DNA from: a virus
Reading direction: 5' to 3' (one strand)
Length of the DNA stretch: 43,286 bases
IMG/VR virus record: IMGVR_UViG_3300036861_000975
Span: 1-43,286 of that record
In this document: piece after piece, positions 9,353-29,833 of the stretch
How the letters are laid out: each line of letters opens with the position of its first letter
How positions within the stretch are numbered: position 1 is the stretch's first letter
Translations under genes and position numbers: made by a program
Notes under the pieces: model-generated
Told to the model about the DNA's origin: nothing
What the model saw: the letters and a program-made list of their open reading frames with translations, nothing else
The model's database searches: none

Positions 9353-11070
9353 GCCAGATCCACCTCGGGTTCGAGGTCGGCAGCGGCAAGCCGGTGGCGA
9401 TCCCGCTGCGGCACCTGGCGGTCACCGGCCAGACGCAGGAGAGCGGCAAGACGACGACGCTCGAGGCCCTGGCCACGCGCGCCGGCGTCGCCGTGCTGGC
9501 CTTCGTCACGAAGCGCGGCGAGAAGGCCTTCAGCCTCGGCGCACGCGTCGCCCCCTACTTCCGCGACCGGGCCGACTGGCAGTTCGTCGACCAGCTCATC
9601 TCGGCCCAGCTCTCGGAAAAGAACAAGTGGCTGCGCCAGTGGTTCATCCCGATCTGCCGGACCACGCGCACGCTGGCCGATGTGCAGCGCGCCGTGAGGA
9701 AGGGGATGGAGAAGGCCACCGGCCAGCGCGCCGGCGCCTACGTCCAGCTGGACGCCTACCTCGACCTGATCGTCCCCGAGATCCAGAGCGCGAAGCTGGC
9801 CAGCTCGCTCGAGCTCGGGCCCGGCCTGAACGTCATGGACATCTCGGGCTCGTCGACGCCGATGCAGATGCTCTTCGTGCAGTCGGCGATCGACTGGGTG
9901 AACGCCCAAGCCCGGAACACCGTGGTGGTGGTCCCCGAGGCCTGGGAGTTCGTGCCGGAGGGGAAGGGCTCGCCGGCGAAGGCCTCGGCGATCGCCCTAG
10001 TGAGGAAGGGCGGCGGCATCGGCAACCACATCTGGGTCGACAGCCAGGACATGGCGGGGGTGGACAAGACGATCCTCCGGGGCTGTGCCGTCTGGCTGAT
10101 CGGGGTCCAGCGCGAGGCCAACGAGATCAAGCGCAACCTCGCCAACATCCCCGCCGGCATCAAGCGGCCCTCGGCGGCCGATGTCGCCACCCTCGCCCGC
10201 GGCCAGTTCTATGCGTGCTGGGGACAGCACGCCCTGAAGGTCTACGTCCAGCCGGCATGGCTGGCCACCGAGCAGGCGCGGGCGTTCGCGAGGAGCGAGC
10301 CACCGCCGACACCGCCTTCGAGCGACCAGGTGGGCAGGTTCATGGAGCGCGGCCTGGCCGCGCAGCACGCCGTCGACCGCGAGATCGCAGCGGCACGGCG
10401 GAAGGAGGACCCCTCGATGTGTGAAGAGCACCAGCGGCTCAGCCGCGAGATGGAGGCCCTCACCGGCTCCCTGAAGGAGGCCCAGCGCGCGCTCGTGGCC
10501 GCCGGCGCCGAGGCGGGGCGGCTGCGCATCCGCGCCCAGGCCGCCGACGAGCTGGCGGCCGCCATCGCGAAGCTGCTGCCGACGGGCGAAGGCCTCACGG
10601 CCGCCGCGGCGTCGGTTGACGAGGACGCGATCGTCCGCAAGGTCCTCGCGCGGATCCCGGCCGGGCCCGCTGGGCCTCTCCAGGTCACCCCGCCCGCGAA
10701 GCTGCGGGCCGACTTCCAGCGGGAGGAGGTCGCCCGCATCCTCTCCGCGATCCGTGACCTGTCGCCCCTCCAGAAGCGGATCCTGAAGCTCCTCGAGGGC
10801 CTCGAGGGGCAGCGCTGCTTCCAGAAGAACATCGCGCAACGCCTCGGCCGGCCCACGGGCGGCGACAGCTGGATCCACATGACGACGGCGGTGAAGGGTC
10901 TGGCGTCGGCTGGCTTCGTCGACGTCGACGAGAAGCGCGGCGTCAGGACCAGCGTGCGCGACAAGATCGCCGGCGGCCTCCAGACCTATCAGGCCGCCGA
11001 CGCAGACGTCGAGGCCGTCTACCAGAACGTCCTGTTCGAGATCGCCAATGAGAACGGAGGCCAAGCATGA
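9349..11070 (+). CDS. HerA/FtsK-superfamily ATPase with C-terminal winged helix
   Basis: 573 residues. The N-terminus IHLGFEVGSGKPVAIPL is a typical HerA-like strand, then Walker A GQTQESGKT (residues 27-35) and a Walker-B-like VVVVPEAWEF with Glu197. Residues about 345-400 are coiled coil (EMEALTGSLKEAQRAL), and about 465-540 look like a winged helix (LQKRILKLLEGLEG, IAQRLGRPTGG, LASAGFVDVDE). There is no ATG, GTG or TTG at a usable place: the conserved sequence begins at CTG 9349, in a CTGA overlap with AGGAG six bases upstream. Probable DNA-tracking motor; its partner is likely the adjacent ParB. Confidence 0.75.
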   Translation: MSQIHLGFEVGSGKPVAIPLRHLAVTGQTQESGKTTTLEALATRAGVAVLAFVTKRGEKAFSLGARVAPYFRDRADWQFVDQLISAQLSEKNKWLRQWFIPICRTTRTLADVQRAVRKGMEKATGQRAGAYVQLDAYLDLIVPEIQSAKLASSLELGPGLNVMDISGSSTPMQMLFVQSAIDWVNAQARNTVVVVPEAWEFVPEGKGSPAKASAIALVRKGGGIGNHIWVDSQDMAGVDKTILRGCAVWLIGVQREANEIKRNLANIPAGIKRPSAADVATLARGQFYACWGQHALKVYVQPAWLATEQARAFARSEPPPTPPSSDQVGRFMERGLAAQHAVDREIAAARRKEDPSMCEEHQRLSREMEALTGSLKEAQRALVAAGAEAGRLRIRAQAADELAAAIAKLLPTGEGLTAAAASVDEDAIVRKVLARIPAGPAGPLQVTPPAKLRADFQREEVARILSAIRDLSPLQKRILKLLEGLEGQRCFQKNIAQRLGRPTGGDSWIHMTTAVKGLASAGFVDVDEKRGVRTSVRDKIAGGLQTYQAADADVEAVYQNVLFEIANENGGQA

Positions 11071-12710
11071 GCAGTCAACCTCACGCGCCGGGCGCACCGT
11101 CCGGCTCGTCCGGCGCGTTCCAGTACCTACCGCTCGCGGACCTCCGCGAGTCGCCCCTCAATCCCAGGAAGCACTTCGACCCGGCGAAGCTCGCCGAGCT
11201 GGCCGCGAGCATCAAGGCGAAGGGCGTGCTCACGCCGCTGCTCGTGAGGCCGGTGGCGAAGGGCGCGGCCTACGAGATCGGCGCCGGCCACCGACGGTAC
11301 CGCGCGGCGAACATCGCCGAGATCGACCAGGTGCCAGCCGTCGTCCGGGAGATGAGCGACACGGAGTTCCTCGAGCTGCTCGTGACGGAGAACGACCAGC
11401 GCGAGGACGTCCATCCCCTCGAGGAGGCGGCCGGCTACCAGGCGCTGATGACGAAGGCGGGGTACCCCGTGGAGCGGATCGCCGAGCGCGTCGGCCGATC
11501 GGTCAAGTACGTCTATGACCGCGTTAAGCTGCTGCAGCTCACCAAGGAGGCCCAGAAGCTCTTCCTCGCCGGTCACATGACAGCCGGCCACGCGATCCTG
11601 CTGGCGCGCCTGTCCCCGGCGGACCAGGAGCGGGCGATCGAGGAGCACGGCGCCTTGTTCACCGACGAGCACCTGCTCTTCACTCCGGAGGAGGAGGAGA
11701 AGCTCGAGGTCGACGACGAGCCGCGGAAGCCCCGGAGCGTTCGGGAGTTCGCGGGCTGGATCGACGAGCACGTGAAGCTCGACGCGACCCAGGCCGATCC
11801 CATGCTCTTCCCCGAGATGGTGCAGACCGTCCAGGCGGCCGCCGAGGAGGCCGAGAAGATCGTTCGCATCACCCACGAAATCATGACCCCCGAGGATGCG
11901 AAGGACGGGCAGAAGCTCATCCTCGGCCGGTCGTGGAAGAGGGCCGACGGCATGCACGGCTCGAAGCGCTGCGACCATTCGGTCACCGGCGTCATCGTGA
12001 TCGGTCCCGGCCGAGGGCAGGCTTTCAAGGTCTGCGTGAACAAGGACAAGTGCGCGGTCCACTGGGGCGCCGAGATGCGCGAGCGGCAGAAGCGCGCGAA
12101 GCAGACGGCGACCACCGGCGCCAAGGCCGCCCAGGACCGCTGGAAGCGGGAAGAAGAGCAGCGCGAGCGTGAGCGGGCGCGTGAGGAGGCCGCGCGCCAG
12201 CGTTGGCAAAAGGCCGCCCCGACCGTCCTGAAGGCGGTCGCGGAGAAGGTGAAGAAGGCGGCGGCCGGTCCCAGCGGACCCCTCGCCCGGATCATCTTGG
12301 GCGCCATCAGGAACGAGGGTGCCGGCGCCGCAGCCGCGGCGGCGTTCGTCCCTCGCGGCACGAAGCCCGAGGACCTCGTGCGCCACGTCGCCTTCCTCAT
12401 CCTCCACGGAGAGGCTCTCGACCGCTGGTACGGCCCTCAGCACTTTCCGAAGCGCGCGAAGGAGCTCGGCGTCGACGTTCAGAAGATCCTCGATGAGGTC
12501 GCTCCGACCGAGAAGGCGGCGGCCGTCGTCGCGCGCTGTAAGGAGTGTGGCTGCACCGAGGACAAGGCCTGCCCGGGCGGGTGCAGCTGGGCCGAGGAGC
12601 CGAACAAGAAGACCGGCCTCGGGCTGTGCACCGCGTGCCGGGCGAAGCGGAAGGCGAAGAACCCGCGGGTGAAGGGCGCGCCGCGCCGCGCCGCCCACGC
12701 GTCGGCCTGA
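11067..12710 (+). CDS. parB: ParB/Spo0J-like nuclease-fold and HTH protein
   Basis: 547 residues, larger than typical chromosomal ParB (about 300). Order: ParB N-terminal domain (LADLRESPLNPRKHF, then AASIKAKGVLTPLLVRP, GAGHRRYRAA), the ENDQREDVHPLEEAAGY segment, an HTH (ERIAERVGRSVKYVYDRVKLL), a middle segment with possible metal ligands (RCDHS, CVNKDKC), a Lys/Arg/Glu coiled coil (about 330-395), and a C-terminal cysteine cluster starting at Cys491 (CKECGC, CPGGC, CTAC). ParB proteins bind a centromere-like site and spread using CTP. No ParA is present; the HerA-like ATPase directly upstream (ATGA overlap) may replace it. Confidence 0.85.
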   Translation: MSSQPHAPGAPSGSSGAFQYLPLADLRESPLNPRKHFDPAKLAELAASIKAKGVLTPLLVRPVAKGAAYEIGAGHRRYRAANIAEIDQVPAVVREMSDTEFLELLVTENDQREDVHPLEEAAGYQALMTKAGYPVERIAERVGRSVKYVYDRVKLLQLTKEAQKLFLAGHMTAGHAILLARLSPADQERAIEEHGALFTDEHLLFTPEEEEKLEVDDEPRKPRSVREFAGWIDEHVKLDATQADPMLFPEMVQTVQAAAEEAEKIVRITHEIMTPEDAKDGQKLILGRSWKRADGMHGSKRCDHSVTGVIVIGPGRGQAFKVCVNKDKCAVHWGAEMRERQKRAKQTATTGAKAAQDRWKREEEQRERERAREEAARQRWQKAAPTVLKAVAEKVKKAAAGPSGPLARIILGAIRNEGAGAAAAAAFVPRGTKPEDLVRHVAFLILHGEALDRWYGPQHFPKRAKELGVDVQKILDEVAPTEKAAAVVARCKECGCTEDKACPGGCSWAEEPNKKTGLGLCTACRAKRKAKNPRVKGAPRRAAHASA

Positions 12711-19286: not shown

Positions 19287-19423
19287 CGGGGGGGGCGGTT
19301 CGTTCCCGGGAGGGGGGGGAGGGGTACACCCGAGGGAGGGTGCCCTCCTCTCTCGCGAGGGCAGCAAAATCCCCCCCGCCGGCGGCCCCGAACCGCGCTT
19401 TCGCCCTGATTTGACGCGGTGAT
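19287..19423. promoter_or_regulatory. G-rich structured gap upstream of terS, candidate cos/pac or terminator
   Basis: No gene. G8 (19288-19295) and G8 (19312-19319) face C7 (19371-19377). GCGGTTCG (19295-19302) and CGAACCGC (19389-19396) are perfect inverted copies 86 bases apart. Inside is hairpin TGCCCTC-9 bases-GAGGGCA (19331-19353). Packaging sites often lie just before terS, so this is the best cos/pac candidate. Four G-runs close together could also form a quadruplex. There is no U-tract. Confidence 0.5.
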
Positions 19424-19930
19424 GTGGGCCATCGGCGAAATCAAACGGGCGGCCGCGGGAAATCAAAGGGCGGCCGTGTCGTCGAGTTCCCCCGCAAGGG
19501 CCCGCGCGGCGGCCCGCGCGGCCGCGGCGGCCACCGCCCTGGCGCTGGTCGGCCTCGCGATCGCGGGCCCTCCGGCATCAGCTGGGCTCGCATCCGCCAC
19601 TACGCACGCCGCGGCGCCGAGCGCGACACGATCATCGCCGCCTTCGGTATCACGGCCGCCCAGCTCGGCGACCCCGACGTCGTCGCGCGCCTCCAGGAAG
19701 AGATGGTCCGCGGCGCCGCCCTGTACCAGCTCGACCTCCTCGACGACGTCCATCGCCTCCGGAAGGGCACCAGCGACGGCAGCGTCAACGCGACCCTGGC
19801 CAGTCTCAAGGAAGCGCACGGCTGGGGCCGTCCGGACTCAGGAAAGGGCCGAAAGGACAAGCGTCCCGACGCCGAGGCCGCCGTCGCCGAGCTCGAGCGT
19901 CTCCTACGGAGAGTCCGTGCGCCTGGGTAG
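19424..19930 (+). CDS. terS: Terminase small subunit
   Basis: 168 residues from a GTG. A basic, Gly/Arg-rich N-terminus is followed by an HTH (ARIRHYARRGAERDTIIAAFG, then ITAAQLGD), a central helical oligomerisation region (YQLDLLDDVHRLRKG) and a phage TerS-like ending (LKEAHGWGRPDSG). It recognises the packaging site and passes DNA to TerL. Directly upstream of terL, overlapping it by 14 bases. Confidence 0.75.
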   Translation: MGHRRNQTGGRGKSKGGRVVEFPRKGPRGGPRGRGGHRPGAGRPRDRGPSGISWARIRHYARRGAERDTIIAAFGITAAQLGDPDVVARLQEEMVRGAALYQLDLLDDVHRLRKGTSDGSVNATLASLKEAHGWGRPDSGKGRKDKRPDAEAAVAELERLLRRVRAPG

Positions 19931-21398
19931 GTTCGGCTTCAAGCCGGAGGTCACCCGGGTGCTCGTCGACCTCTGCAAGGAGCTGCACGAGCTGCCGCTC
20001 GCGCAGCGCCGCGAGGCACTCCTCACGCTCAGCGTCGACACCCAGGCGGCGATCAAGGCCCTCGACTACGAGTGGATCCTGTTCGCGCGGCCCGAGCAGC
20101 TCGCGCCGGCGCCGCCCTGGCGCTGGTGGGTGATGCCCGGCGGCCGCGGCGGCGGCAAGACCCGTTCCGCCGGCGAGCAGGTCACCGAGTGGGCCTGGGA
20201 CAACCCCGGCATCCGCATCGCTCTCATCGGGAAGGACTCGGGCAGCCGCAACCGGATCATGGTCACGGGGAAGTCGGGTCTGCTGCGCATCTCGCCGCCG
20301 TGGTTCCGGCCGCGGTGGTGGAAGACGGACAAGATGCTCGAGTGGCCCAACGACACCATCGCCGACCTCCATTCCTCCGAGGAGCCGCAGACGCTGCGCG
20401 GGCCCGAATACCACAAGGCCTGGACCACCGAGCTCTTTCACTGGCAGATCCCGAAAGGCGAGAAAGAGCCCGTCGCGTGGCGCGAGGGCATCAAGCTTTC
20501 GCTGCGTCTGGGCGAGGACCCCCAAGGCATCATCGACTCGACGCCGCGGCCGACGGAGTTCTGCAACCACTTCCTGCTGGGGCCGAAGAACGCGCGCGGC
20601 GATCGCCTGATTTCGCAGGAGCAGGTGGAATCCGGCGACTGGCGGATCGAGCACGAGCTCGAGGACCAGGACGGCCGCAAGCACCGCTACGTCGTCGTCG
20701 TCCGCCGGTGGTCGTCCGAGCGCAACGCCGCCAACATGTCGCCCGGCGTCATCGCCGAGTGGCGCCACGACCTCCGCGGCTCGCGCCTCGAGGCCCAGGA
20801 GCTCGACGGCATCATCAATGCCAAGGTCGAGGGCGCCCTCTGGTCGACGGAGCTGCTCGATCAGAACCGGGTAGACGGGATCCCCCGCATCGTCAAGACG
20901 CTCGTGGCGATCGACCCCACCAGGTCGAACACGCCGCGGGACGAGGCCGGAATCATGGTCGGCGGGCTCGGCGAGGACGGCCACGCCTACGTGTGGGACG
21001 ACTGCTCGCTGCGCGGCAGCCCTGACCGCTGGGCCCGGGCGGCGATCGCCGCCAGGAACCAGTACGGCGCCTCCGCCATCGTGATCGAGAAGAACCGCCT
21101 CGAGGCGAAGGCGCGCGAGACGATCCGGACCATCGACCGCAGCGTGCGGTGGGTGGAGGTCTCAGCCCTCGACGGCAAGCGCACGCGCGCGGAGCCGGTG
21201 GCGGCGCTGTACGAGCAGGGGCGAGTCCACCACGTGCGCGACGTGCGGTACCCCGAGCGCTTCGCCCTCCTCGAGGACGAGATGATCAGCTGGGACCCCC
21301 GCGATGCGAAGGCCATCAGCCCGAACCGGCTCGACGCGCTGGTCTGGCTCGTACACGCGCTGCTGATCGGCGAGCACAAGGTGCCGATCTCGCTGTAG
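19917..21398 (+). CDS. terL: Terminase large subunit
   Basis: 493 residues from GTG 19917; the frame is open for another 500 bases upstream, but that part is the shadow of terS. Walker A is MPGGRGGGKTRS with Lys81. The ATPase continues through SSEEPQTLRGPEY and STPRPTEF. The nuclease domain follows, with LVAIDPTRS (first acidic residue), then AIVIEKN and a final Asp in SPNRLDALVW. This is the ATP-driven packaging motor and endonuclease, similar to the COG5323-type TerL found in HK97-like phages and gene transfer agents. Confidence 0.93.
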   Translation: MRLGRFGFKPEVTRVLVDLCKELHELPLAQRREALLTLSVDTQAAIKALDYEWILFARPEQLAPAPPWRWWVMPGGRGGGKTRSAGEQVTEWAWDNPGIRIALIGKDSGSRNRIMVTGKSGLLRISPPWFRPRWWKTDKMLEWPNDTIADLHSSEEPQTLRGPEYHKAWTTELFHWQIPKGEKEPVAWREGIKLSLRLGEDPQGIIDSTPRPTEFCNHFLLGPKNARGDRLISQEQVESGDWRIEHELEDQDGRKHRYVVVVRRWSSERNAANMSPGVIAEWRHDLRGSRLEAQELDGIINAKVEGALWSTELLDQNRVDGIPRIVKTLVAIDPTRSNTPRDEAGIMVGGLGEDGHAYVWDDCSLRGSPDRWARAAIAARNQYGASAIVIEKNRLEAKARETIRTIDRSVRWVEVSALDGKRTRAEPVAALYEQGRVHHVRDVRYPERFALLEDEMISWDPRDAKAISPNRLDALVWLVHALLIGEHKVPISL

Positions 21399-21408
21399 GA
21401 GGACCGCG

Positions 21409-22746
21409 ATGAAGGGATTCCGACAGTGGATCGCCCGCGCGGCACGCGCGACCTCGCGCCTGCTGACCTCTCCCTTCGAGCTGCTGCGCGGCATCTTCCC
21501 GGTCGCGATGGGCGAGCCGCCGCCGCTGAACACCGACAAGCTCCTCGAGGGCTACGACTCGATGCCCTGGCTCCGCGCGGTCGCGGAGAAAGTCGGGTTC
21601 GCCGTCGCGGCCGCAGAATGGCAGCTCTTCGCCATCAAGCGCGGCGGCAGGACGGTGCGCGATCCGTTCGTGCAGCACGCCACCGTCGACGCGCGCACGA
21701 AGGTGCTCGCCGCGCTGCGGAATTCGGGCAACCTGCGCGAGATCACGGATCACCCCTTCTTCGACGCCCTCAATGACCCCAACCCCTTCATGGGCCTCAT
21801 CGGCCTTCTCAAGCTCACCGCCATCCACATCGACCTGGTGGGCGATGCGTACTGGGTGAAGGAGCGAAACAAGCTGGGCGTCGTGGCCGGCTTCTGGCCG
21901 ATCCCGCCGCACTGGGTGATGTGGCACCCGACGCCTGGGCGGCCGACCTACAAGATCGGCTACCGCGCTTGGCAGGCCGAGATCCCCGAGAGGGAGATCG
22001 TATGGTTCCACGAGCCGTCGCCCGCGAACCCCTTCACGCGCGGCAGCGGCATCGGCTGGTGCTTGGGCGACGAGCTGGAGGTCGACGAATACGCCGCCAA
22101 GTTCGCGAAGGCGCTGTTCCACAACCAGGCGCGGCCGGACTTCGTCGTCTACGGCTTCGACAACCCGACCGAGAAGCGGCGCGTCGAGCGCGACTGGGTG
22201 AACCGCCTGCAGGGCTTCTTCCGGGCCCACCAGCCCTACTTCATGACGGGCGAGCCGAAGTTCCACGAGTTCCAGCGGCCGACCATGGACCAGCTCGTCT
22301 ATCCGAGCCTCCGCAAGGCGCAGCGCGACATCGTGCTGCAGACGTGGGGCGTGGCGCCGGAGTGGTTCGGGATCGTCGAGAGCTCAAACCGCGCGACGAT
22401 CGACGCGGCGGAGTACCTGGTCGCGCGCTGGGTGGTGACGCCGCGCGTCGAGCGGATCCGCACCGTGCTGCAGAAGCTCTTCCAGGACGAGTACGACGAG
22501 CGCGGGGTGCTGCACTTCAAGTCGCCAGTGCCGCAGGACAAGCAATTCATCCTGCAGGTGGCGAAGGCGGCGCCGCATTCCCGCAAGGTCGACGAGTGGC
22601 GCGCGATGCAGGAGCTGCCGCCGGTCGGCGGCGCGGAGGGCGACGCTTTCCTCGTGCCACTGAACAGCCGCATCACCGACGACCTCCTCGAGCAGCTGCA
22701 GCCGCCGGCGCTCCCGCCGGCGCCGAAGAAGGGAAGCGCCGCCTGA
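21409..22746 (+). CDS. Portal protein, HK97 family
   Basis: 445 residues, the normal size. The family pattern is clear: MPWLRAVAEKVGFAVAAAEW, HPFFDALNDPNPFM, HIDLVGDAYW, then GLGY-like stem residues and SNRATIDAAEYLVARW near the crown. Twelve copies would form the DNA gate at the capsid vertex and bind TerL during packaging. AGGACC and a short gap follow terL. Confidence 0.93.
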   Translation: MKGFRQWIARAARATSRLLTSPFELLRGIFPVAMGEPPPLNTDKLLEGYDSMPWLRAVAEKVGFAVAAAEWQLFAIKRGGRTVRDPFVQHATVDARTKVLAALRNSGNLREITDHPFFDALNDPNPFMGLIGLLKLTAIHIDLVGDAYWVKERNKLGVVAGFWPIPPHWVMWHPTPGRPTYKIGYRAWQAEIPEREIVWFHEPSPANPFTRGSGIGWCLGDELEVDEYAAKFAKALFHNQARPDFVVYGFDNPTEKRRVERDWVNRLQGFFRAHQPYFMTGEPKFHEFQRPTMDQLVYPSLRKAQRDIVLQTWGVAPEWFGIVESSNRATIDAAEYLVARWVVTPRVERIRTVLQKLFQDEYDERGVLHFKSPVPQDKQFILQVAKAAPHSRKVDEWRAMQELPPVGGAEGDAFLVPLNSRITDDLLEQLQPPALPPAPKKGSAA

Positions 22747-23022: not shown

Positions 23023-23059
23023 AGCCTGCGGCGCTTCGAAAGGAGCGCGCAGGCTTTTT
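23023..23059 (+). terminator. Intrinsic terminator overlapping the protease ribosome site and start
   Basis: AGCCTGC-G-GCGC pairs with GCGC-GCAGGCT (11 pairs, one bulged G) around loop TTCGAAAGGA, then TTTTT (23055-23059). The ribosome site AAGGAG (23040-23045) sits in and beside the loop, and the TTG start (23058) is in the U-run. RNA from the promoter at 22959 would be about 65 bases if it stopped here. Confidence 0.8.
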
Positions 23060-23963
23060 GGCTTCCAGGGCTCTCGACGTACCTGCCAACCTGCTGAGCC
23101 TCGACGACTGGAAGGCGAAGGCCCGCGCCGGCGCGGCGCCCACGGGCGTCGTGCTGCGCAAGCAGTACATCGCCCAGGTCCTGAAGGCTGACGGGGAGAG
23201 CGGCAGCCGCAAGCGCTCCTTCACCATCAGCACCGGCGTCCGCGACCGCGACCGCGACACGCTCGCGGTGGCGGGCTGGGAGCTCGGCAACTACCTCAAG
23301 AACCCCGTCGTGCTCTGGGCCCACATGTACCGCGAGCTGCCGATCGCGCGCGCCTCCGACGTCGCCGTCGTGGGCGACGAGCTGAGGGCCTCGGCGGAGT
23401 TCGCGGGCGCGGACCTCTACCCGTTCGCGGAGACCGTGCTGCGGATGCTCGACGGCGGCTTCCTGCGCGCGGTGTCGGTCGGGTTCAACCCCCTCTCTCA
23501 TTCCTGGAACGACGAGCAGCGCGGGGTCGACTTCCTGAAGCAGGAGCTGATGGAGTACTCCGTCGTTCCCGTACCTGCAAACCCCGAGGCCTTGATGGAC
23601 GCGAAGGCCGCGGGGATCGACGTCGCCCCGCTGCGCGCGTGGGCCGAGCGCGTCCTCGACGAGACGTCAGAAGAGCCCGGGCTGTGGCTCCCCAAGAGCC
23701 GCGTGGAGGAGGCCTTCAAGGCCCTCGCCCCCCGGGCCGTCGCTGTTCCCGGTGCGGGCGCTTCGGAAGCGGCTGGGGCCCATAACCCCGGCGCTCCCGG
23801 TTCGACTCCGGGGCCCGCTACCAACCCCGAGAAGGCGGGCGGCGAGATCGCCGCGGCCGCGCCCTTCGTCCCCGACCTGGCCAGGCTCGAGGCGGTCGTC
23901 CGCTCGAGCGTTTCCGAGGTGGCGCAAGCGCAGGTGAACCGTGCGCTCGGCCGCCTCGACTGA
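23058..23963 (+). CDS. HK97-type prohead protease
   Basis: 301 residues from TTG 23058, chosen because the N-terminal NLLSLDDWKAKA segment belongs to the family and AAGGAG lies 12 bases upstream. Catalytic His89 (WAHMYRELPIA) and Ser140 (FLRAVSVGFNP) are visible, and EYSVVPVPANPEA is the usual family strand. It digests the scaffold and capsid delta domain during head maturation. Residues 239-256 of the linker are encoded by a tRNA-fMet-like 3' half. The C-terminal segment may be scaffold-like. Confidence 0.9.
   Translation: MASRALDVPANLLSLDDWKAKARAGAAPTGVVLRKQYIAQVLKADGESGSRKRSFTISTGVRDRDRDTLAVAGWELGNYLKNPVVLWAHMYRELPIARASDVAVVGDELRASAEFAGADLYPFAETVLRMLDGGFLRAVSVGFNPLSHSWNDEQRGVDFLKQELMEYSVVPVPANPEALMDAKAAGIDVAPLRAWAERVLDETSEEPGLWLPKSRVEEAFKALAPRAVAVPGAGASEAAGAHNPGAPGSTPGPATNPEKAGGEIAAAAPFVPDLARLEAVVRSSVSEVAQAQVNRALGRLD
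23753..23823 (+). other. tRNA-fMet-like sequence embedded in the protease gene
   Basis: Anticodon stem TGGGG/CCCCG around loop CCCATAA (anticodon CAT, 23781-23783), variable loop GCGCT, T-arm CCCGG-TTCGACT-CCGGG, acceptor GCCCGCT, A and CCA (ending 23823) form a full tRNA 3' half. An upstream TGCGGGC (23753-23759) pairs with the acceptor except at the 1:72 position, and GCTT-CGG-AAGC gives a shortened D-arm. Position 33 is C instead of the near-universal U. It resembles initiator tRNA more than a working tRNA gene. Confidence 0.6.
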
Positions 23964-23974
23964 GGAGTAGAGCG

Positions 23975-25297
23975 ATGTCCACGCAGCCCGCTGCCGGCGC
24001 CGGAGCAGGACAGCCCGGCTTCTTCAAGGATCAGGCCGAGCTCGAGGCCTTCCTGAAGCGCGTCGTCGTCGAAGAGGCGGGGCCGGCCGTGGCCAAGGCC
24101 ATGGCTCCCTACACCGAGAAGCACGCCTCGATCATGCGCGACATGCTCGAGGAGGCCTCGCGCGACAAGGAGGCCACGAAGGTGGGGCCCGGCCTGATGT
24201 TCGCGCGGATGGTCCGCGCGCTGGCCCTCGCGCATATCGAGACGGGCCGCAAGGGCCCCGAGCTCCTCGAAGCGTCGAAGGGCGCCGTCGAGAAGCACTG
24301 GGGCAAGGACGACCCCGTCCTGAAGGGCATCGAGGGATCCCTGAAGCTGGCCAAGGCGACGGCCAGCCAGGTGGGCGACGCGACCTCGCTCGGGAACTTC
24401 ATCATCCCGCAGTGGTCGCGGGAGTTCATCCAGCTCCTGCGCAACCAGCCCGTGGTGCGCAGCCTCGCCCGCGTCATCCCGAACCCCACGGGCAGCCTCA
24501 CCCTCCGCCGCCAGACGTCAGGCGGCATCGCGTACTGGGTGGGGGAGGGCGGCGTCGTCACCGCGTCGAAGCCGGGCGTCGGGCTCATGAGCTTCCTGCG
24601 CAAGAAGCTCGCCGCGCTCAGCGTGATGAGCAACGACATGATCCGCTTCGGCGGGCCCGAGGCCGATCAGTTCGTGCTCGACGACCTGCTCCTGGTGAGC
24701 GCGATCGCCGAGGACCTCGCCTTCATCCGCAGCCTGGGCACGGAGTTCTCGCCCAAGGGCATCCGCTACCTGACCGCTGCGGCGAACGTCTTCGCGCAGT
24801 CGGGCACCACCCTGGCCGCGATCGACACCGACTTCGCCCAGGCGAAGCGGCTGGTGGAGGAGGCGAACGTCTTCATCCAGCCGGACACCGCCGCGTGGCT
24901 GATGATCCCGCGCACGTACTACGCGCTCTGGAACGCGAAGCCGGCGACCGACGCCGGCGCGCGGCCCTACCGCGAGGAGCTGAAGATGCGCGAGGGCGTC
25001 GCCCCCCAGGGCCGCGTCCTCGGGGATCCGGTCCGCAAGACGAACCAGATCCCGAAGAACCTCGGCGGCGGCTCGAACGAGTCGGAGACGTACTACGTGC
25101 ACGGCCCCTCACTGCTCATCGCCGACACCCTGAACACCCAGGTCGACGTCTTCCCCGGCGGCGCCTACGAGGACGGCGGCGTCGCGGTGTCGGGGATCTC
25201 GCGCGACGAGACGGTGCTCCGGGTGCTGCGCGAGACCGACTTCAACATGCGGTACGCCGAGGCGGCCGCGGTGATCACCGGGGTGACGATCTCGTAA
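23975..25297 (+). CDS. Major capsid protein, HK97 fold
   Basis: 440 residues. Residues about 1-125 are helical and charged, as in the cleaved delta/scaffold domain. The rest carries HK97-fold landmarks: GNFIIPQWSREFIQLLRN (N-arm to E-loop), YWVGEGGVVTASKPGVG, LAALSVMSNDMIRF, a long spine helix, and a C-terminal DFNMRYAEAAAVITGV strand. It follows the protease as in HK97. Protomers form the icosahedral shell. Confidence 0.92.
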   Translation: MSTQPAAGAGAGQPGFFKDQAELEAFLKRVVVEEAGPAVAKAMAPYTEKHASIMRDMLEEASRDKEATKVGPGLMFARMVRALALAHIETGRKGPELLEASKGAVEKHWGKDDPVLKGIEGSLKLAKATASQVGDATSLGNFIIPQWSREFIQLLRNQPVVRSLARVIPNPTGSLTLRRQTSGGIAYWVGEGGVVTASKPGVGLMSFLRKKLAALSVMSNDMIRFGGPEADQFVLDDLLLVSAIAEDLAFIRSLGTEFSPKGIRYLTAAANVFAQSGTTLAAIDTDFAQAKRLVEEANVFIQPDTAAWLMIPRTYYALWNAKPATDAGARPYREELKMREGVAPQGRVLGDPVRKTNQIPKNLGGGSNESETYYVHGPSLLIADTLNTQVDVFPGGAYEDGGVAVSGISRDETVLRVLRETDFNMRYAEAAAVITGVTIS

Positions 25298-25363: not shown

Positions 25364-25879
25364 ATGAATCCGGCATTGCTCGCGAACATCGGGCACTTCG
25401 TGCACGGCGTCGCGGCCTCGCGCCTGGCCACCCAGATCAGCATGGGCAGCCTCTCGGCCGGCGCGGGCCTGGTCGTCACGACCACCGGGGACGTGATCGA
25501 CCTGAACGGCCTGCCGAGGAAGTACCGCTCGTGCAAGGTCATCGTCCCCGTCCGCTATGGGCTGGCCAGCGGCCACTCGTGGACGATCGGCGGCGTCTTC
25601 AAGCACTCGAGCGCATCGGGCTCCGGCTTCAACGCCCTGCTCACGCCCTCGAGCGTCGCGGTGACGAAGGTCGGCGCGACGTCGACCGTCGCCTTCGGCT
25701 CCCGGCTCGTCCACCAGTACAGCGTGGACCTGCAGGGGGCGAAGCGCTTCATCCGGCTCAACATCACGAAGGCCGGCAACGTGACCGCCTCGGGCGCCTC
25801 GCCGGGCTCGCTCGTCGAGGTCGGCGCCGCGGTGATCGTGTTCGGCGGCGCGGACAAGACGCCGGCGTCGAGCTCGTAG
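25364..25879 (+). CDS. Probable capsid decoration protein
   Basis: 171 residues with GAGGAG before the ATG. Beta-rich with many Ser, Gly and Val (LSAGAGLVVTTTGDVIDL, HSWTIGGVFKHSS, KRFIRLNITKAGNVTASG). Position directly after the capsid gene is typical of cement or decoration proteins. No specific family recognised. It may be the acceptor for the two sugar genes that follow, which is inference. Confidence 0.55.
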   Translation: MNPALLANIGHFVHGVAASRLATQISMGSLSAGAGLVVTTTGDVIDLNGLPRKYRSCKVIVPVRYGLASGHSWTIGGVFKHSSASGSGFNALLTPSSVAVTKVGATSTVAFGSRLVHQYSVDLQGAKRFIRLNITKAGNVTASGASPGSLVEVGAAVIVFGGADKTPASSS

Positions 25880-25901: not shown

Positions 25902-26600
25902 GTGAAGCGCGTCGCAATCGTCGGCTTCTGGGAGGGGACGAGGGACCAGGCTCCGTACGCGGACCGGTCGTTCGAGGTCTGGTCCCTCAACCACGCCCAC
26001 CCGTACGTCGCCCGCTGGGACCGATGGTTCGACTTCCACCCTCCCGAGTGGTCGGCGAAGAACCTGGTGCCGTCCGTCTGGCAGGACCAGGACCGCTTCC
26101 TGCGGGAGAAGCACGGCAAGCCCATCTACATGCTGCAGGCCCACCCGGACTACCCCGACGTCCTGGCCTATCCGCTCGAGGCCGTCCTGCAGGAGTTCCC
26201 GCGGCGGTATCTGACGAGCGGCATCGCCTACATGCTCGCGCTCGCCCTGCACGAGCGCTTCGAAGAGATCCACCTCTACGGCGTCGACATGCGCCACGAC
26301 ACCGAGTACGCGCTGCAGCGGCCCTGCTGCGAGTACTACCTGGGCGTGGCCGAGGGCCGGGGCGTGAAGGTCTACGTCCCGCCGCCGGCGGCGATCCTCA
26401 CCTTCGACTGCCTCTACGGCTACGAGGAGGAGTCGAGCGCGTGGATCGAGATGCGCCGCGCGCACGAGGAGGTGCTGAAGACCGCCATCGAGGGCAAGAA
26501 CAAGGCCCTGGCCGAGGCCCAGACCTACGACGGCGTCATCCAGACCGAGCGCGAGTGGCTCCGCCGCATCGACGAGCGCCGGCGCGGGGGCGTGCTGTGA
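25902..26600 (+). CDS. Sialyltransferase-like (GT42/Maf-like) Rossmann protein
   Basis: 232 residues from a GTG. The N-terminus RVAIVGFWEGTRDQAPY...FEVWSLN recalls the GT42 sialyltransferase opening (nucleotide-binding loop, then an Asn after strand two). TSGIAYMLALALHERFEEIHLYGVDM recalls the second landmark of GT42 and of Maf/DUF115 proteins. Both families use CMP-nonulosonic acids. The C-terminus (about 185-232) is a charged helix. Its stop overlaps a CMP-nonulosonate synthetase gene, which supports the idea. Assignment is by remote pattern only; related phage proteins are usually left hypothetical. Confidence 0.45.
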   Translation: MKRVAIVGFWEGTRDQAPYADRSFEVWSLNHAHPYVARWDRWFDFHPPEWSAKNLVPSVWQDQDRFLREKHGKPIYMLQAHPDYPDVLAYPLEAVLQEFPRRYLTSGIAYMLALALHERFEEIHLYGVDMRHDTEYALQRPCCEYYLGVAEGRGVKVYVPPPAAILTFDCLYGYEEESSAWIEMRRAHEEVLKTAIEGKNKALAEAQTYDGVIQTEREWLRRIDERRRGGVL

Positions 26601-27391
26601 ACGTTCTTGCGATCGTGCCGGCCCGCGGGGGCTCGAAGGGCGTCCCGAACAAGAACATCCGCCGCCTGGCCGGAAAGCCGCTGCTCGCCTGGTCGATTGA
26701 GGCTGCGCTCGCCGCCGAGTTGGTCGACCGCGTGGTGGTCTCGACGGACTCGCCGCGGATCGCCGAGGTCGCCTTCGTCGCCGGCGCCGAGATCGTGATG
26801 CGGCCGGCGGAGCTGGCCACGGACCAGGCCCTCACCGACCCGGTGCTCGTCCACGCGATCGACCGGCTGCGCGAGGCTTCGGGCCCGACCGTGTACACGC
26901 GCCACCTGGCGCACTACCGGCCCGACCTGGTGGTGCTCCTGCAGCCGACGGTGCCCTTCCGCCGCGAAGGCCTCATCGACGACTGCATCCGGCGCCTGCT
27001 GGCGACCGGCGCCGACAGCCTGCTCACCGGGATCCCGCTGCACTTCGTCTGGTGGCGCGAGAGCGCGAACCCAGACCGCGCCGCCGACGGTGAGGCGCGG
27101 TGGCGCAGCCAGTGCCCGCGGCGGCCGCGGCGGCAGGACATGGTCGCGCGCGAGCTCATGTACCACGAGGACGGCAGCGTCTACGTGACGCGCACCGAGC
27201 TGCTCGAGAACGCCGGCCGGCGGCTGGGCGGCCGGGTCGAGCTCTTCGAGAACGAGCCGAGCGTGGACATCGACACCGAGCGTGACTTCCTGGTCGCCGA
27301 GGCCCTCTTTGCGGCGAAGGCGGCGGATCTGCATTCGTCTGCACTGGCGTCGCGGCTGCCGGCGCCGGCCCCCGCGGGAGCGCCGGCGTGA
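26597..27391 (+). CDS. neuA: CMP-N-acylneuraminate (nonulosonate) cytidylyltransferase
   Basis: 264 residues from a GTG in a GTGA overlap. Motif order is intact: IVPARGGSKGVPNKNI (residues 6-21, nucleotide binding), GKPLLAWSIEAAL, VVVSTDSPRIAEVA, LLQPTVPFR, then RQDMVARELMYHEDGSVYVT and VDIDTERDFLVAE near the end. It activates a nine-carbon sugar (sialic, legionaminic or pseudaminic acid; sequence does not say which) with CTP. It stands inside the head module, beside a possible transferase. A Pro/Ala-rich tail is not part of the family. Confidence 0.88.
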   Translation: MNVLAIVPARGGSKGVPNKNIRRLAGKPLLAWSIEAALAAELVDRVVVSTDSPRIAEVAFVAGAEIVMRPAELATDQALTDPVLVHAIDRLREASGPTVYTRHLAHYRPDLVVLLQPTVPFRREGLIDDCIRRLLATGADSLLTGIPLHFVWWRESANPDRAADGEARWRSQCPRRPRRQDMVARELMYHEDGSVYVTRTELLENAGRRLGGRVELFENEPSVDIDTERDFLVAEALFAAKAADLHSSALASRLPAPAPAGAPA

Positions 27392-27711
27392 GGAGCGTCC
27401 GCCTCCTGCAGCGCTACGGCCCCGTGAACCCGGGAGAGGTGGCCGGCTACGACGACGCCGAGGCCCAGGACCTCATCCGCCGCGGCGCCGCCGAACCGCT
27501 CGAGGGCCGCGCGCCCGCGCCGGAGCGCTTGGTCCAGGAGATCGACCCCGACCTCGAGGTCCTGGGCGCCACCGACCGCGACCCGGAGTGGATGGAGCGC
27601 CACCAGGAGGCCTTCGAGGTCCAGCACGGCCGCAAGGCGCTCGAGGGCCCGCCGGCCGACAAGATGGTGACGGAAACGCAGGCGGAGCGGAAAACCGGGC
27701 GGAGGCGGTGA
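27388..27711 (+). CDS. Small head-module protein, paralogue of the 30435 gene product
   Basis: 107 residues from a GTG in a GTGA overlap. The N-terminal 35 residues (VRLLQRYGPVNPGEVAGYD, then LIRRGAAEPL) match a small phage module that binds neighbours in head-tail regions; the same module recurs at 30435. The C-terminus is charged and probably disordered. Function unknown. Confidence 0.55.
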   Translation: MRSVRLLQRYGPVNPGEVAGYDDAEAQDLIRRGAAEPLEGRAPAPERLVQEIDPDLEVLGATDRDPEWMERHQEAFEVQHGRKALEGPPADKMVTETQAERKTGRRR

Positions 27712-27714
27712 GCG

Positions 27715-28653
27715 ATGGGCCTCTCCGTCGTCACCATCGCCCGCAGCCGCCGCCTCACCCACCGGGAATACGTCAAGCGCCAGCTCGGGCTCAGCGGTAG
27801 CACCGAGGATCTGCTCCTCGACGACCTGATCCACGAGTACTCCGCGGCGATCGAGAGCCACTGCCGGCGGATCTTCGCGCGCGAGGTGGTGACGGAGACC
27901 CTCGCCGGCTACGACGACCTCTACCTGCAGCTCTCGCGCACGCCGCTGGTTTCGGTGCCCGCCGTGAACTTCGACGGCAGCCCCGTCACCGACTTCGAGG
28001 TCGCCGACCGCGACGAGGGGACGCTCTACCGCCGCGACGGCTGGGGGTGGACCGCTCAGTCCGAGGCCGGCCTCACGGGCTGGCAGCGCTGGCCGCGCGG
28101 CGGGCAGCCGCTCGTGCGTCGGGTGGAGCCGCTCTACAGCGTGCCCTCGTACGTGGGCGGCTACGTGCTTCCCTCGCTCGACGTCGTGGCCCAGACGACG
28201 ATCTCGGCGGCCGCGGGAGACTCGAGCTTCAACGACTCCGCGAACGGCTTCCCGGGCGGCGCCGCCGGGATCCTCGCGGGCGACGTCGTCGACGTGAGCG
28301 GATTCGCGACCGCCGCGAACAACGGCCGCTTCGCGATCACGGGCAACCCGGCGGCCGGGAAGATCACGGTGGCCGGCACCCTCGCGGATGCGGCGGCCGG
28401 CGCCACCGTCACCATCCGGTTCCGCGGCCGCGCGGACGTGCGCCCTCTCGACGACGTCGAGAAGGCCTGCATCGAAGCGGTGAAGTCGGGCTACCTGCAG
28501 CGGAAGGACGACCCGCAAGTCGTCGAGAAGCAGGTCGGGCAGCTCCGGATCCGCCGCGGCGAGGCACAGACCGGCGGCTCGATCTTCAGCGACTACCCGG
28601 GGTTGCCCGCGGTATGCGTGGGCCTGCTGCGGCCCTGGGTGAGGGAGGCGTGA
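27715..28653 (+). CDS. Head-tail connector (gp6-like) with an inserted beta domain
   Basis: 312 residues; typical gp6-like adaptors have about 100-200. The helical adaptor core is at both ends (DDLIHEYSAAIESHCRRIF, and DVEKACIEAVKSGYLQRKDDPQV). In between, residues about 160-240 form an inserted beta domain (DSSFNDSANGF, GDVVDVSGFATAANNGRFAI, KITVAGTLADAAAGATV). It should form a ring below the portal. The insertion would face outward. Confidence 0.75.
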   Translation: MGLSVVTIARSRRLTHREYVKRQLGLSGSTEDLLLDDLIHEYSAAIESHCRRIFAREVVTETLAGYDDLYLQLSRTPLVSVPAVNFDGSPVTDFEVADRDEGTLYRRDGWGWTAQSEAGLTGWQRWPRGGQPLVRRVEPLYSVPSYVGGYVLPSLDVVAQTTISAAAGDSSFNDSANGFPGGAAGILAGDVVDVSGFATAANNGRFAITGNPAAGKITVAGTLADAAAGATVTIRFRGRADVRPLDDVEKACIEAVKSGYLQRKDDPQVVEKQVGQLRIRRGEAQTGGSIFSDYPGLPAVCVGLLRPWVREA

Positions 28654-29043
28654 ATGACCGGCCTCGAGCTCGCGGCGGCGATCGGCACGTACGTGGGCAC
28701 GGCCGCGGCCGCGGCGTGGGCGGCCACCAGCCGCGAGCGCAAGCGGAGCGCCCGGGAATCGGGCACCGGCGGCGGCGGCACGGTCGTCACCGCGGGCTGG
28801 GTGCGGCGCATCGAGGAGCGGATGAGGGAGGAGCACCAGGAGATGCGTGAGGCCATCCAGCTCCACGGCTACCGAATCGAGGCCCTCGAGCGCGACACCG
28901 CCGGGATCCGCGACGCGATGGACGCCGGCCTCGGCGAACTGAAAGAGACGCTGAAGGGGGTCGTCGAGCAGATCGTCGACATCCGGATCGCCCTCGGGGT
29001 GGCCGAGCGCCGCAGCGGCGCCGACAGGCGGGGAGGAGGCTAG
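28654..29043 (+). CDS. Membrane-anchored coiled-coil protein
   Basis: 129 residues. A weak Ala-rich membrane helix (about 4-24) leads to a Gly linker and a long coiled coil (about 49-110, ERMREEHQEMREAIQLHGY...). It ends in a basic tail. Inside a connector cluster, this could be an unrecognised holin or spanin component, or a scaffold-like assembly factor. Uncertain. Confidence 0.5.
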   Translation: MTGLELAAAIGTYVGTAAAAAWAATSRERKRSARESGTGGGGTVVTAGWVRRIEERMREEHQEMREAIQLHGYRIEALERDTAGIRDAMDAGLGELKETLKGVVEQIVDIRIALGVAERRSGADRRGGG

Positions 29044-29387
29044 TGAGCTTCGACGCCGCCCTCGAGGAGTTCTTCACGGAGACGGTGACCCTCGCACCGC
29101 TCTCGGGCCAGACGCTCTCCCAGGCGCGGAGCTACGGCGCCGCCAAGAGCATCCACGCGCGCATCGAGCAGGGCTCGCGGCTGGTGCGTGCGGCGGATGG
29201 CCGCGAGGTGGTGTCCCAGACCCGCGCGTTCCTGAAGCCGGTGGCCACCGACGGCAGCTCGTTCACGCCGAAGATCGACGACCAGCTCACGCTGCCCGCC
29301 GGCTACACGCCGCAGCAGCCGCCGCTGATCGCAATGGAGCGGCACAACGACCTGGACGGGCTGCACCACTGGGTGCTCCACACGTGA
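29043..29387 (+). CDS. Head-tail joining or head completion protein
   Basis: 114 residues from a GTG overlapping the upstream stop. Beta-rich (KSIHARIEQGSRLVRAADG, DDQLTLPAGYTPQQPPLIAM). Its size, fold and place before a gp10-like gene fit a head-closure or stopper protein of the SPP1 gp16/HK97 gp9 kind. The stop overlaps the next GTG. Confidence 0.65.
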   Translation: MSFDAALEEFFTETVTLAPLSGQTLSQARSYGAAKSIHARIEQGSRLVRAADGREVVSQTRAFLKPVATDGSSFTPKIDDQLTLPAGYTPQQPPLIAMERHNDLDGLHHWVLHT

Positions 29388-29833
29388 GGGTCCGGGTGCA
29401 GGTCGTCGGCGCCGAAGATGTCGTGCGGAGCCTGCGCGCCATGGGCCGCGCGGGGCGCAAGGTGACCAAGCGCGTCTTCGGCGAGGTGGCGAGCGAGACC
29501 GTCACCGCGGCGGGCCCGCTCACGCCGGTGGAGCCGGAGGACGGCGGATACCTCCGGAAGTCGCTCCGGAAGTCCGGGCCCACCGAGACGAAGACGGCCG
29601 GCGTCTTCGTGGCGGTCGTCGCCGGCGGCGCGCCCCTCGAGGCGCACCTCCGTGCCACCGGCCACAAGAAGAACGTCTACGCGGTCGTCCAGCACGAGGA
29701 CTCGACGCTGCGCCACAAGACCGGCCAGGCGAAGTTCCTGGCCACGCCGTTCTTCCGGAAGGTTGCGGAGGTGCCCGACCGGCTGATCGACGGGCTCGAC
29801 CAGGAGAGGGACCGTGTCGTCGGCGGCAGCTGA
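29384..29833 (+). CDS. HK97 gp10-like neck protein
   Basis: 149 residues. GAEDVVRSLRAMGRAGRK at the start, AAGPLTPVEPEDGGYLRKSL, YAVVQHED and a C-terminal FLATPFFRKV are characteristic of the gp10-like family. It connects the closed head to the tail tube. The start is a GTG in a GTGA overlap. Confidence 0.8.
   Translation: MRVRVQVVGAEDVVRSLRAMGRAGRKVTKRVFGEVASETVTAAGPLTPVEPEDGGYLRKSLRKSGPTETKTAGVFVAVVAGGAPLEAHLRATGHKKNVYAVVQHEDSTLRHKTGQAKFLATPFFRKVAEVPDRLIDGLDQERDRVVGGS

Follow-up and report, generated by a model that had tools for sequence, protein, structure and literature searches.

A GT42-like transferase and a CMP-nonulosonate synthetase encoded beside the capsid gene of an uncultivated tailed phage: a candidate module for virion glycosylation

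Why does a tailed phage encode two putative sugar-handling enzymes in the middle of its head module? The window, that is, the whole stretch of DNA analysed here, is a 43-kb IMG/VR contig (IMGVR_UViG_3300036861_000975; 43,286 nucleotides), and the head genes described below all lie on its plus strand. The genes of the terminase large subunit (19419..21398; phrog_979, E = 6e-21; 53% identity to the terminase of a related contig, L002), the portal protein (21409..22746; phrog_2662, E = 3e-48), the head maturation protease (23058..23963; phrog_80, E = 4e-19), and the HK97-type major capsid protein (23975..25297; PF05065, E = 8e-20; phrog_617, E = 2e-37) are followed by that of a decoration-like protein (25364..25879; phrog_5707, a PHROG of unknown function, E = 1e-8). 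Then come the two enzyme genes, for a transferase of 232 residues (25902..26600) and a synthetase of 264 residues (26597..27391). They are succeeded by genes for a small protein of unknown function (27388..27711; phrog_2616, E = 5e-5), a head-tail adaptor (27715..28653; phrog_442, E = 2e-16), a head-tail connector (29043..29387; phrog_3881, E = 4e-10), a neck or tail completion protein (29384..29833; phrog_5, E = 7e-10), the major tail protein, and the tape measure. The Pfam and PHROG assignments of these neighbours confirmed the place that the initial annotation had given to the pair, between the capsid/decoration genes and the head-tail connectors. Both reading frames are open and start with GTG, and they overlap by four bases (GTGA), as had been noted. 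The decoration-like protein encoded directly 5' of the pair contains 19.9% Ser and Thr, and a syntenic ORF is found in two related contigs (L072 and L002).

The product of the downstream gene is, as judged from its sequence, a CMP-nonulosonate synthetase of the NeuA/PseF type. It should be mentioned that the gene was listed by the ORF program as 26024-27391, owing to an in-frame start further upstream. The protein matched PF02348 (CTP_transf_3) with E = 4e-24 and 86.1 bits, against a curated cut-off of 22.6, and it carries the PARGGSKG-P-KN signature of NeuA/PseF synthetases. Its nearest solved structures are CMP-sialate synthetases: NeuA chains of the PDB were matched with E values down to 5e-23, whereas KdsB reached 1e-8. 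The best NCBIfam model was PseF (TIGR03584, pseudaminic-acid cytidylyltransferase) with 123.8 bits, and KdsB-type models gave only 33-53 bits. The PseF score is under the equivalog cut-off of 205.7 bits, too low to assign one particular sugar. The product differs from the NeuA/PseF synthetases in this respect, and also in belonging to a phage clade marked by a QDM-ARELMYHEDGSVYVTR block. The initial annotation of a clear CMP-N-acylneuraminate cytidylyltransferase holds for the kind of enzyme, but the specific sugar is not assignable. In the isolate collection, the sole NeuA relative was a record named Moritella viscosa. A search across the 43-kb record gave no match to NeuB anywhere, in agreement with the earlier statement that a neuB-type gene is absent.

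The upstream gene is a complete ORF, the product of which gave no match in Pfam, PHROG, NCBIfam or PDB sequence searches; a scan for close relatives with this protein alone found none. With a three-sequence alignment as the query, 65 viral loci of a transferase family were found (designated here by L numbers). In the alignment of 54 family members, P18, D21, G127, E135, and Q139 are invariant. H46 is the only conserved histidine (48 of 54 members) and is located just after the third strand, N-terminal of the GVD (GID) motif; it may fall near Asn51 of CstII, which is a lead only. The glycosylation reading set out below proposes a function for proteins that are missed by the current Pfam, PHROG and NCBIfam libraries. 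Only one phage in the isolate collection, Microcystis phage Mvi-Yong1342-1, has a credible homologue (L004:7908-8711, XAN61349.1). This homologue is annotated as a "type 11 methyltransferase", which is probably a misannotation, and a separate gene of the same genome is annotated as "sugar O-methyltransferase".

The AlphaFold2 model of the transferase had a pLDDT of 92 and a pTM of 0.86. Upon comparison of this model with 350,542 PDB chains, nine chains were matched at E ≤ 1e-3, all of them from the GT42 sialyltransferase CstII (probability 1.00), with TM-scores of about 0.43 and sequence identities of 15-18%. A divergent relative, L050, shares 29% identity with the window protein, and its gene lies next to NeuA and NeuB. 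Its model, in which the N-terminus is of low confidence, matched in order 1ro8 (CstII, E = 6.5e-4), 2p56, 2x61 and 9c08, the fourth being a Pasteurella sialyltransferase. When the family profile was compared with PDB sequences, the top match, which was sub-threshold, was a bacterial sialyltransferase and CstII chains came next; these sub-threshold matches all align at the TSG-YM...GID segment. A structure search of BFVD matched the model to a viral DUF115 protein with E = 4e-4. These comparisons suggest that the product has a GT42-like single-Rossmann fold, and the structural check against CstII that had been proposed for it gave the same top match for both divergent members. No sequence family was matched; the resemblance to GT42 is visible only through comparison of structures and profiles. 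After the Rossmann domain, residues 179-227 of this protein and its relatives form C-terminal helices with a near-invariant glycine (G211), which are possibly an oligomerisation or acceptor-docking part.

The initial annotation had described the protein as resembling both GT42 and Maf/DUF115 transferases. This stood for the predicted fold, but not for membership of either family: profile searches reached neither. The window protein had no match to the Pfam CST-I family (PF06002), for which two of the 54 members were matched at E values of at least 0.048, below the cut-off. PF01973 (MptE-like, DUF115) was not significant, again with two of the 54 members and a best E of 0.13. In CstII, the catalytic base is His188 (His202 in CstI; PMC4202792). 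The position of His188 is C-terminal of the GID motif, and no conserved histidine is found at this place in the transferase family, where the best histidine column C-terminal of GVD is occupied in 9 of 54 members. On the basis of sequence and the catalytic histidine, the family is classed here as GT42-like and not as a member of GT42 or Maf/DUF115; it probably works like a GT42 enzyme. It shares with CstI and CstII of Campylobacter the predicted single-Rossmann GT-A-like fold, the TSG-x-YM-A-IA...GID segment and the link to CMP-nonulosonate (CMP-NulO) synthesis. In contrast, the invariant D21, E135 and Q139 and the near-invariant H46 are its own, as are the C-terminal helical extension and the location in phage head modules. 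With Maf/DUF115 it seems to share a related Rossmann fold, as indicated by the BFVD match, whereas no Maf structure was among the PDB matches listed. Transfer of NulO to proteins has been proposed for Maf proteins (PMC9298399). PF06002 matched nothing in the genomes searched, 399 from a single phylum, or in 50 NeuA-bearing viral contigs, the controls being likewise silent. Since no bona fide GT42 sequences were recovered in this way, the comparison with GT42 is one of structures and weak profile matches. It is the linkage to NeuA and NeuB genes that points to CMP-sialic acid as the putative donor.

This linkage was found across the family. PF02348 (NeuA/SpsF) is present in 19 and NeuB in 11 of 50 non-redundant family contigs; 20 of the 50 have at least one of these genes, and among the 12 contigs that reach 30 kb, 9 do. 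PF02348 was found in none of 50 random IMG/VR contigs, the total DNA of which was twice that of the family contigs (Fisher p = 2e-7, which is indicative only, as the family contigs are mutually related and a 15-base word was used to pick the random contigs). In the 29 distinct contigs with both genes, the two are always on the same strand, and 10 pairs are no more than 300 bp apart; the distance is about 3 kb in L002, L008, L020 and L043. In the reverse survey, the transferase was found in 14 of the 79 NeuA-bearing viral loci examined, within the DNA examined. The synthetases of the family contigs include NeuA-like and SpsF-like versions, and the SpsF-like variant, so named from its motifs, occurs together with NeuB in L045, L051, L053, L054 and L058. 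The best models for the NeuB proteins of the relatives were N-acetylneuraminate and pseudaminate synthases, and L051 has an additional dehydratase/epimerase and an aminotransferase-type gene. In L050, a methyltransferase gene (10390-11091) lies between NeuA and NeuB, beside the transferase, and the sugar may be further modified there.

Over half of the family contigs, including large ones of 81, 60 and 41 kb, show no synthetase, and the complete Microcystis phage Mvi-Yong1342-1 also has the transferase without a synthetase. Scans with the capsid and terminase proteins found few relatives. Apart from the L002 contig, the capsid relatives lacked both genes in the DNA examined, and no cytidylyltransferase was present in eight contigs with a related capsid or terminase. 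In two loci from Clostridia and Bacillota MAGs (L170 and L171), a transferase homologue lies beside NeuA outside an evident phage head module. There, NeuA is divergently oriented and longer (an ORF of 405-417 residues), and this pairing is possibly a bacterial NulO system. The general rule seems to be a transferase with nonulosonate genes in the head module, to which some relatives add NeuB or an SpsF-type synthetase, while others have the transferase alone. The survey of related phages bore out the expectation that the pair is conserved together in head modules (co-occurrence in 19/50 against 0/50 in the random set).

The position relative to the capsid gene also recurred. In all 24 contigs with a PF05065 match, the transferase gene follows the capsid gene on the same strand, a place among the phage structural genes that suits a virion glycosylation system; the median distance from the capsid domain is 780 bp, and 23 of the 24 are within 1.5 kb. 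The two genes are directly adjacent in L015, L016, L045 and L047. The order in L045 is terminase, SpsF-like, NeuB, portal, protease, capsid, transferase (terminase, portal and protease named from ORF reading), and the transferase starts 4 bases past the end of the capsid ORF. A second arrangement, portal-MuF-NeuA-GT-scaffold-capsid (gene names from ORF reading), is seen in L026, L027, L029 and L038. L072 repeats the order of the window: capsid, decoration-like, transferase, NeuA, adaptor. Both enzymes are 61-62% identical between L072 and the window, and the capsid proteins are 43% identical. The enzymes are more conserved than the capsid protein and their order is the same, which argues that the pairing is not due to chance.

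We consider it rather probable that the pair is a late-expressed, two-step NulO glycosylation module, which acts on a virion protein with a sugar supplied by the host. The synthetase would convert CTP and free NulO of the sialic, pseudaminic or legionaminic type to CMP-NulO. Since NeuB is absent from the record, the NulO would come from the host; in the NeuB-bearing relatives it would be made by the phage. The transferase would bind CMP-NulO and place the sugar on a virion protein expressed together with it, the best candidates being the major capsid protein and the decoration-like protein encoded just upstream. These two are the likeliest acceptors because of the recurrent place of the transferase beside the capsid gene, although this nearness could reflect late expression alone. 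The outcome would be an acidic sugar coat on the phage head. Phages with the transferase alone would need CMP-NulO from the host, or another donor. The idea of NulO glycosylation came through at two of the three points where the initial annotation had exposed it: the fold is predicted to be GT42-like, and the pair is conserved together.

The same chemistry might be directed to another target, namely a surface glycan of the host (LPS, capsule, S-layer or flagellin), modified late in infection so as to mask receptors or mark the infected cell. The glycans of glycolipids are the substrates of classical GT42 enzymes (PMC4202792), late expression would serve the release of progeny, and the two bacterial MAG loci have the same pair outside an evident head module. 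This target is nevertheless rather unlikely, as the transferase follows the capsid gene in 24 of 24 capsid-bearing contigs and lies between MuF-like and scaffold genes in a second lineage. Envelope-modifying cargo genes usually sit among accessory genes. Recurrence in the head module is unexpected for a gene of this kind.

It is also conceivable, and in our view distinctly unlikely, that the transferase-like protein belongs to the wider GT42/DUF115 superfamily as a Rossmann protein which binds nucleotides but does not transfer nonulosonates; it might then be an MptE-like pyrophosphokinase, for instance, or transfer a different sugar. The viral DUF115 match and the two members with MptE-like matches at E of at least 0.13 would fit such a protein, and so would the weak TM-score to CstII, the lack of a His188 equivalent and the members without any synthetase, which count against virion glycosylation as well. 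Against it stand the strong association with NeuA, SpsF-type and NeuB genes, and the CstII or other sialyltransferase chains that head the PDB structure matches of two divergent members. The CTP_transf_3 fold is common to NeuA and KdsB, and KdsB-type models gave some score, so that the synthetase might activate another ulosonic acid such as Kdo, with a Kdo transferase as its partner. This seems very improbable: the PseF and NeuA matches were far above those of KdsB, on which ground Kdo synthetase identity was rejected, and the relatives carry NeuB-family synthases. The least credible reading is that two unrelated cargo genes came to lie side by side by chance. The gaps of about 3 kb in several contigs mean that adjacency is not fixed, but the co-occurrence in the survey, the constant strand and the identity kept in L072 led us to reject chance adjacency.

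Virion glycosylation of tailed phages is known from a few actinobacteriophages. Mycobacteriophages encode glycosyltransferases (Che8 gp110, Corndog gp38) that put sugars on capsid and tail proteins (Freeman et al. 2023, as cited in PMC12363180). The window pair resembles this system in that the transferase is phage-encoded; in contrast, neither a CMP-NulO synthetase nor a GT42-like enzyme is mentioned in the passages of PMC12363180 examined. Bacillus subtilis SpsF is a putative CMP-legionaminate (CMP-Leg) cytidylyltransferase of the sps pathway (SpsE/SpsF; PMC7439481). Five phage relatives likewise have an SpsF-type cytidylyltransferase, there with NeuB, whereas the sps pathway decorates spores and no GT42 enzyme is reported in B. 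subtilis (PMC7439481). A literature search that covered neither bioRxiv nor most subscription papers gave no prior report of a NulO version of phage virion glycosylation or of this transferase family. For the wider proposal, that an undescribed phage transferase family with a GT42-like fold and its own catalytic residues puts NulO on capsids, its genes neighbouring that of the capsid protein in many uncultivated tailed phages, some of which would only activate the sugar (NeuA) and others make it themselves (NeuB and NeuA/SpsF), the evidence seems evenly balanced. If true, a sialic-type coat from a dedicated capsid-linked pair would introduce a sugar class and a transferase family new to virion glycosylation, and acidic phage surfaces would be predicted. 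As the arrangement recurs in many diverse phages, such phages may decorate their heads with sialic-type sugars.

Some further features of these genomes should be mentioned. L068 has two transferase paralogues (818-1810 and 9902-10789) on either side of a NeuA-NeuB cluster, and two paralogues per contig are also found in L055, L067 and L170. In L019, L026, L027, L029 and L038, the transferase has a long N-terminal extension, and a NeuA-like gene lies immediately upstream, which is the reverse of the window order. The early region of the window encodes a ParB-type protein (11067-12710; ParB_N, E = 2e-25; HTH_ParB, E = 2e-16), which may indicate a plasmid-like prophage or may be a ParB-like regulator.
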